IMG/VR virus record: IMGVR_UViG_3300021440_000096
Span: 1 to 28,460 of that record
DNA from: a virus
Strand: one strand, 5' to 3'
DNA length: 28,460 nucleotides
Every line of letters begins with the position of its first letter. Within the stretch, counting starts at the first letter, position 1. Below are positions 22,427 through 28,180 of this stretch, piece after piece. The notes beneath the pieces are model-generated. The model was given only the letters and a program-made list of their open reading frames with translations, was not told the DNA's origin and did not search any database. The translations under genes and the position numbers were made by a program.

Positions 22427-22452
22427 TGATTGTCGCATTAGTGCAACAATCA
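22427..22452 (-). promoter_or_regulatory. Repeated leader element copy 1 (operator or RNA hairpin)
   Basis: On the minus strand, GTTGCA-CTAA-TGCGAC lies at 22447-22432. It is extended by flanking bases to an 11-base-pair dyad (TGATT...AATCA) with one G-T pair. It sits in the gap between two leftward genes, 34 bases before the ATG at 22397. The 12 arm bases are identical to those in two other copies in the window. Confidence 0.75.
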
Positions 22453-22483
22453 TTTCAGGCGGGAGTTGTCCTAGAAGCTTTTC

Positions 22484-22687
22484 TTATGTCCTACGGTTGC
22501 GGGCCTCATAGGCTTGGACGTCCTTGAGCGAGTAGAGCACGCGACCGCCGATCTTCGTGAAGGTTGGACCGCCTCCACGACTGCGCCAAGTGGCCAGAGT
22601 CGCGGGCTTAACTTGTCCGCGCCAACGGGTCGTCAGTTCGGCAACGGTGAGCAGCGGTTGCTCGGATTCAGGCGTCGGCGTTTGCAT
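22484..22687 (-). CDS. Excisionase/MerR-like helix-turn-helix protein
   Basis: A 67-aa protein with the pattern of small winged-helix DNA-binding proteins (HTH_17/excisionase type). LLTVAELTTRWRGQVKPATL gives the recognition HTH, and the wing and last helix follow (FTKIGGRVLYSLKDVQAYE). Such proteins act as excisionases or as local regulators. I choose the start at 22687; the gene then overlaps the 3' end of the upstream gene by 20 bases, and an upstream extension would shadow it. No integrase is seen in the window, so regulation is as likely as excision. Confidence 0.7.
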   Translation of the reverse strand: MQTPTPESEQPLLTVAELTTRWRGQVKPATLATWRSRGGGPTFTKIGGRVLYSLKDVQAYEARNRRT

Positions 22688-23246
22688 TGGCGGTGGATTG
22701 GTTGAGTGTGGCGGTTTCGTCGGCAGTCTTTGCGGTGGCCTGCAAGGAAGCCAATTCAGCCTCAGCTCGCGAACGGACGTCCTTGGGGGTGACTTTCCAA
22801 GCTGCGCGGAAAGCCTCAGTTCCTTGCGTTGCGGCTTCTCTGAGCGGAGCAAGGTCATCTACTAGCGGGAAAACCGTGTAGGGGCTTTTAGAGCCCTTTT
22901 TATCGGTCAGCATGAAGGTGAGTTTTTCTGACACGCCGGACATGTGCGAGATGCGGATACCGCCGACCTTTTTCCCGCCGTAAATCACGTCAGGGTTGGC
23001 GAACAACGTCACGGACTTCCCAACGAAACTGCCGCCGTCTTTGCCCCAGACATGGACCAATGCTCGGCGCATGGAAAGGCAAGGCTTCCACGGCTTGTTG
23101 TTGTCGCCGTCGTAGTAAATCCAAAGCGGTTGTTGCGGGTCGTTTTTCTTGACCACCTCACGAATGCGGATGGTCATCGGCCCAGCGAGAAGACTGTCGG
23201 CGTTAAGCTGATCAGTCTTTGGAATAATGGTGTCGGTGATGTCCAT
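22668..23246 (-). CDS. Conserved phage protein next to the YqaJ exonuclease
   Basis: A 192-aa protein whose sequence style (GPMTIRIREVVKKND, WIYYDGDNNKPWKPCLSMRR, YGGKKVGGIRISHMSGV, KKGSKSPYTVFPLVDDL) I associate with a phage family often found beside YqaJ-type exonucleases. The biochemical role is not known to me. Its position suggests a recombination partner that binds single-stranded DNA in place of RecT/Bet/Erf. A beta-rich body is followed by an Ala/Thr/Asn-rich low-complexity tail of the kind seen in single-strand binding proteins. The ATG at 23246 lies two bases after the exonuclease stop. Confidence 0.65.
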   Translation of the reverse strand: MDITDTIIPKTDQLNADSLLAGPMTIRIREVVKKNDPQQPLWIYYDGDNNKPWKPCLSMRRALVHVWGKDGGSFVGKSVTLFANPDVIYGGKKVGGIRISHMSGVSEKLTFMLTDKKGSKSPYTVFPLVDDLAPLREAATQGTEAFRAAWKVTPKDVRSRAEAELASLQATAKTADETATLNQSTANANADA

Positions 23247-27777: not shown

Positions 27778-28127
27778 AATCCGAATCCCGCAACTCATCC
27801 GAAATCGTCCGCGCCATCGGCAAGGATCAGCGTATCAAGATGTTCCGCAACAACATGGGCGTCGCCAAGCAGGCAAACGGGTCGGTGGTCCGCTACGGCG
27901 TCGGCCCGAACGGCGCGTCCGACTACATCGGTTGGACGACGGTTGAGATCACGCCGGACATGGTCGGGAAAAAGGTCGCCGTGTTCACCGCGATTGAGAT
28001 GAAGAGCGACACTGGCCGCGTCCGTCCCGAGCAGGAGCATTGGATAGGCGTGGTAAACGCCTCAGGTGGTCGAGCTGGAATCGCTCGCACGCCATCTGAC
28101 GCGATGAGGATTGCTGGGCTGCTATAA
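27774..28127 (+). CDS. VRR-NUC domain nuclease
   Basis: A 117-aa single-domain nuclease of the VRR-NUC family. An N-terminal helix with FRNNMGVAKQ leads to VRYGVGPNGASDYIGWT, with the catalytic Asp in SDYIGW. A later EMKSDTGRVRPEQEHW carries the E-x-K pair. These form the PD-(D/E)xK-like active site. Phage members of this family are linked to Holliday-junction or flap cleavage. It overlaps the helicase gene by four bases, so the two are co-translated, probably acting in replication-linked recombination. Confidence 0.9.
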   Translation: MKSESRNSSEIVRAIGKDQRIKMFRNNMGVAKQANGSVVRYGVGPNGASDYIGWTTVEITPDMVGKKVAVFTAIEMKSDTGRVRPEQEHWIGVVNASGGRAGIARTPSDAMRIAGLL

Positions 28128-28162
28128 GCAAAACTGTTACCTCCACGGGTCAAGCTGTCCGG

Positions 28163-28180
28163 TGTTGCATTAGTGCGACA
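28163..28180 (+). promoter_or_regulatory. Repeated leader element copy 3
   Basis: GTTGCA-TTAG-TGCGAC at 28164-28179, 22 bases before the ATG of the last gene. An extra T-A pair and, beyond a two-base bulge, CCGG/CCGG arms extend the stem. It falls in the 74-base gap after the nuclease gene. Confidence 0.75.

Follow-up and report, generated by a model that had tools for sequence, protein, structure and literature searches.

In the lambda CI/Cro system, palindromic sites of approximately 16 bp in OL and OR are located at the −35 of promoters, a small Cro-like HTH gene adjoins them, and several copies of the site are distributed over several early operons. The window analysed here, a stretch of phage DNA of 28,460 bp, shares these features, and the lambda operator sequence differs from its sites. 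C.BclI, C.Esp1396I and small XRE regulators are small autoregulatory HTH proteins. In the window, the dyad GTTGCA-N4-TGCGAC very probably serves as a palindromic operator, at the DNA level, for a Cro-like HTH protein of 59 aa that the phage itself encodes. The first-pass annotation had suggested the protein encoded beside the second copy as a possible binder of the dyad, and the comparative sequence evidence strongly backs this assignment.

A search of both strands of the 28,460-bp record, run as proposed and spanning the entire contig, revealed exactly three exact matches to GTTGCA-N4-TGCGAC and none elsewhere. Copy 1 (GTTGCACTAATGCGAC) is located at 22432..22447 on the minus strand, copy 2 (GTTGCACTCCTGCGAC) at 24822..24837 and copy 3 (GTTGCATTAGTGCGAC) at 28164..28179, both on the plus strand; these are the positions and strands originally reported. 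The N4 centres are CTAA, CTCC and TTAG, respectively. Distances of 34 (copy 1), 23 (copy 2) and 22 nt (copy 3) to the next ATG were re-measured with the same result. All three copies lie in non-coding DNA, which makes up approximately 4–5% of the window. Gapped 12-mers can individually recur by chance in 28 kb, but of 150 dinucleotide shuffles just two yielded any near-palindromic family of the form 6-N(0–10)-6 with identical arms at three or more places, even before the non-coding position is counted, and the real window contains exactly one such family. Chance copies are also contradicted by the conservation of the site in relatives, and the probability that the three arose by coincidence is negligible. 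Using a weight matrix built from 14 sites of relatives, with the window copies left out, the three copies occupied ranks 1–3 of the window, with scores of 20.6 for copies 1 and 3 (ranks 1–2) and 17.2 for copy 2 (rank 3) compared with 15.8 for the highest score in 60 shuffles. A possible weak fourth site at 24756..24771 on the minus strand (GTTGCATTTGCGCGGA, one perfect half and three mismatches) precedes the leftward gene 24738–24529 by 17 nt; its matrix score of 7.1 is within the noise and its sequence is suggestive only.

Copy 1 is followed by two leftward genes, a 149-aa gene to which no function was assigned (21948..22397, minus strand) and an AAA/SbcC-like ATPase gene (phrog_1499; 20640..21941, minus strand). 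Just upstream of copy 1, at 22484–22690 on the minus strand, a protein resembling HTH_17 (excisionase/MerR-like) is encoded, with a match slightly under the Pfam cut-off. Copy 2 is located 23 nt before the gene of the 59-aa HTH protein (24861..25040), the first of a plus-strand operon that continues with a 71-aa protein without assigned function (25037..25252), a superfamily II DNA helicase with an intein (25252..27777; Pfam ResIII, Helicase_C and Hom_end_hint) and, as the last gene before copy 3, a VRR-NUC nuclease or Holliday junction resolvase-like gene (27774..28127). The gene after copy 3 (28202..28460, plus strand) continues past the contig end. The intein, at 25356–26408, is inserted in the P-loop of the helicase after PTGGGK (C..HN / T) and matches Hom_end_hint (6e-19) and, weakly, a LAGLIDADG endonuclease; at least one relative, G004, has an intein-free helicase of 489 aa. 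No divergent CI repressor gene was found on the window, which is an incomplete contig; the product of the divergent gene in the window, 69 aa long, gave no match to an HTH domain.

The 59-aa protein was modelled with AlphaFold at a pLDDT of 93.5, with helices at residues 3–13, 18–24, 29–36 and 43–58. The model confidently predicts a small all-helical XRE-like fold of four helices, in which helix 2-turn-helix 3 forms the HTH and the recognition helix reads R29-A-T-W-A-R-W-K36. Its match to Pfam HTH_26 is weak (16.5 bits against a cut-off of 22). Homologues of the protein were identified in 18 other records within the set of phages selected by helicase similarity.

Phages with a similar helicase (records G001–G026, 36–46% identical) are the closest traceable relatives; an IMG/VR search with the window terminase and ATPase confirmed no close ones. 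The dyad is conserved in many of these phages as a near-perfect GTTGCA-N4-TGCRAC, mostly as the symmetric GTTGCA-N4-TGCAAC with few variants, and single changes fall mostly in the right arm. The fixed asymmetry previously described for the element (TGCGAC, never TGCAAC) thus holds for the window phage but not for its relatives. The usual order is an intrinsic terminator (frequent in this arrangement and verified for one relative), GTTGCACTTGTGCAAC, 7 nt, TAGGTT, a CAACC-rich leader and the ATG. In most cases the site is found at the head of the operon with the HTH homologue and the helicase, with the HTH gene in between. A genome usually carries a pair of sites, each at a different early operon, and two site-bearing promoters were found in each of G006, G010, G012, G017, G019 and G026. 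Absence of the element upstream of orthologous genes, which the first-pass annotation had named as evidence against it, was looked for among the relatives, and the site was present; in G004 it occupies the position orthologous to copy 2, 37 nt before the HTH gene. The site also co-occurs with the HTH family: it is present in every one of the 11 untruncated records whose HTH homologue is strong and in none of eight HTH-less records, counts which are not independent as the records are partly akin. The latter set is reduced to none of seven when G016 is removed, where the HTH gene lies beyond the analysed stretch and the operator region is lost at the contig end. A whole-genome de novo search for palindromic families gave a signal swamped by GC-rich coding sequence.

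The position of the site relative to promoter elements bears on two other readings. In the relatives TTGCAy forms a −35-like box, separated by 16 nt from TAnnTT, which resembles a −10 box; the dyad thus overlies the −35. At the three sites of the window a sigma-70 scan detected no promoter, and the three promoters of the window itself have weak or indistinct −10 boxes. The nearly invariant left half TTGCA, 16 nt before TAnnTT in relatives, would be expected if the dyad were just a conserved early-promoter sequence serving as −35 for the host or a phage RNA polymerase and not an operator. A −35 box needs no second half-site, yet the inverted copy is conserved, and the dyad also occurs in Gram-positive phage CI/Cro regions that have a separate TTGACA −35. 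A promoter element alone is therefore extremely unlikely to account for the dyad. It had also been proposed that the element acts as a 5′-leader RNA hairpin which steers translation of genes lacking Shine–Dalgarno motifs. All three window copies do fold into a perfect 6-bp stem with one UG wobble (approximately −5 kcal/mol) and stand 22–34 nt before the ATG. In the relatives, however, the site is mostly 36–68 nt from the ATG and upstream of the −10-like box, and hence would lie outside the transcript. The suggested covariation check was run on 19 sites of relatives: pairing is broken in five (TGAAAC in three, CGCAAC in two), compensatory changes in the arms number zero, and for one relative's pair-breaking site no RNA fold is predicted. 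Moreover, homologous HTH proteins occur in CI/Cro switches with tandem copies. Because the site precedes the −10 box and the broken pairs are uncompensated, the RNA-leader proposal is disfavoured and appears very improbable.

The reading of the dyad as an operator of the HTH protein was extended to diverged family members, in which a core TTGCA-N4-TGCAA is found just upstream of the HTH start. For 14 HTH-first members, the summed core mismatches within 150 bp upstream amounted to 19, compared with a mean of 51 and a minimum of 42 in shuffles (n = 2000); this broader core rule is partly post hoc, since it replaced a stricter one. The strict rule, set beforehand from the presence of R29 in the site-bearing records then known, was that only R29 proteins have sites within one mismatch, and it failed because L328, a W29 protein, carries CTTGCAACTCTGCAAC. 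The outer base of the half-site varies with residue 29: R29 proteins go with G, W29 proteins go with C or A, and Q29 proteins have sites of the form TTTGCA..TGCAAT or CATGCA..TGCATG. No recognisable site was found for the HTH homologues of G005, G007 and L331. Near-identical TTTGCG-N4-CGTGATCGCGAC sequences, one copy each, directly precede the H29/Y29 HTH homologues of G005 (11336) and G007 (32202), and TTTGCG-N4-CGTGAT of these two phages is possibly a diverged operator.

Members of the family also occur in switch regions. In L209 (IMGVR_UViG_2843857367_000001; 4060–5155) the HTH homologue takes the place of Cro opposite a divergent HTH repressor, in a lambda-like immunity region. GTTGCA-N4-TGCA occurs three times in this 88.8-kb record, always within 0.9 kb of the switch region, and TTGCA-N4-TGCA sites flank the repressor gene on both sides. 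In L325, three tandem CATGCA-N4-TGCATG-like sites are located at approximately 3060–3160, with the HTH gene on one side and a divergent repressor of the S24-peptidase type on the other. A scan with the motif only revealed many CI/Cro regions of Gram-positive type, each with two or three copies. In phiAT3 (L340, NC_005893), for example, three GTCGCA-N4-TGC[AG]A[CT] sites at 915, 938 and 1001 (GTCGCAAATTTGCAAC, GTCGCATATTTGCGAT and GTCGCAGGAATGCGAC) lie between the annotated CI-like repressor and a Cro-like ORF without annotation; no experimental proof of the CI/Cro sites of phiAT3 and the related Streptococcus and Staphylococcus phages was found in the literature searched. Additional occurrences were observed in other contexts. 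L221 contains the same operator plus CTAGGTTT at 2101–2130, before an apparent DNA ligase gene, and no family HTH was found on this contig. In another phage group, GTYGCA-N4-TGCRAC is paired at a distance of 38 bp upstream of packaging-type genes (L066, 6052 and 6090; L014, 13648 and 13686; L053, 5424 and 5462), and more copies lie between structural genes, as in L032 at 2650 and 8036. The family HTH was not found in the stretches examined of L066, L014, L053 and L032.

For 119 IMG/VR stretches retrieved by the motif alone, we asked which recognition helices are encoded within 500 bp. Helices of the type R-[SATV]-T-x-x-R were found at 16 of the 119 loci, several of them closely akin, compared with 4.5 expected (maximum 11 of 2000). 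The same helices without that R showed no enrichment near the motif (12 against 9.1 expected). It is conceivable, though we hold this only tentatively, that GTYGCA-N4-TGCRAC is one operator read by R-[SA]-T-x-x-R helices of repressors and Cro proteins in distant phages, namely Lactobacillus, Streptococcus and Staphylococcus phages as well as environmental phages, with the outer base set by residue 29. If so, this would amount to a simple protein–DNA code and possibly to a basis of cross-immunity among unrelated phages. The data also suggest that the recognition helix of a small phage HTH protein can be used to predict its half-site, and such predictions would aid regulon finding in phages known only from metagenomes.

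The occurrence of CI/Cro switches raises the question of another binder. In such switches both proteins are expected on the same operators, and a CI gene could be missing from the window, which is a fragment; the dyad might then be the site of a CI-like phage repressor encoded off the contig, or of a host regulator, which the small HTH gene merely adjoins. However, the site travels with the HTH family, including the promoter directly before the HTH gene, and a CI protein encoded elsewhere would be an additional binder that does not exclude the HTH protein. We consider a sole foreign regulator very improbable. The host SOS (LexA) operator was rejected as a candidate, as the motifs given in PMC8565304 are unlike the dyad. 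Regarding the host, the window terminase has weak matches to Verrucomicrobia phages, among others, and the best genome-collection matches of the helicase are mostly alphaproteobacterial.

The preferred assignment to the 59-aa HTH protein thus combines a candidate operator in the promoter of its own gene (copy 2, 23 nt before it, together with the family-wide enrichment) with the same candidate operator at other early operons (copies 1 and 3, and the second sites of relatives). The protein would bind the dyad directly and as a dimer, with one subunit on each half-site, where its recognition helix (R29-A-T-W-A-R34-W-K) would read the TTGCA sequence. As the left half is the −35-like TTGCAy, bound HTH protein is expected to block RNA polymerase, so that it would act in repression rather than activation by occupying the dyad over the −35. 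Via copy 2 the HTH protein would limit its own operon with the helicase and the nuclease, and via copies 3 and 1 it would control two further operons, that of copy 1 with the ATPase gene. An uncultivated phage group thereby gains a testable regulator–operator pair together with target operons (helicase, nuclease and ATPase).

The searched literature, mostly without subscription journals, yielded no description of this HTH–operator pair. Compared with known systems, the best PDB folds for the 59-aa model are those of C.BclI, C.Esp1396I and small XRE regulators (TM approximately 0.7), but this likeness is in fold only, with none significant (E > 0.3), and no restriction–modification genes were seen beside the window HTH gene. 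PhiAT3 and related Streptococcus and Staphylococcus phages share GTYGCA-N4-TGCRAC and R-[SA]-T-x-x-R helices with the window, but differ in protein subfamily and hosts and have tandem instead of dispersed sites. Unlike lambda, the window has single sites before three separate operons and shows no CI gene on the fragment, while L209 and L325 share with lambda an HTH homologue opposite a repressor and two to three tandem sites. Since many other phages likewise combine this kind of site with this kind of protein, the pair proposed here represents a new example of a familiar switch and belongs to the phage Cro/CI operators, a known kind.
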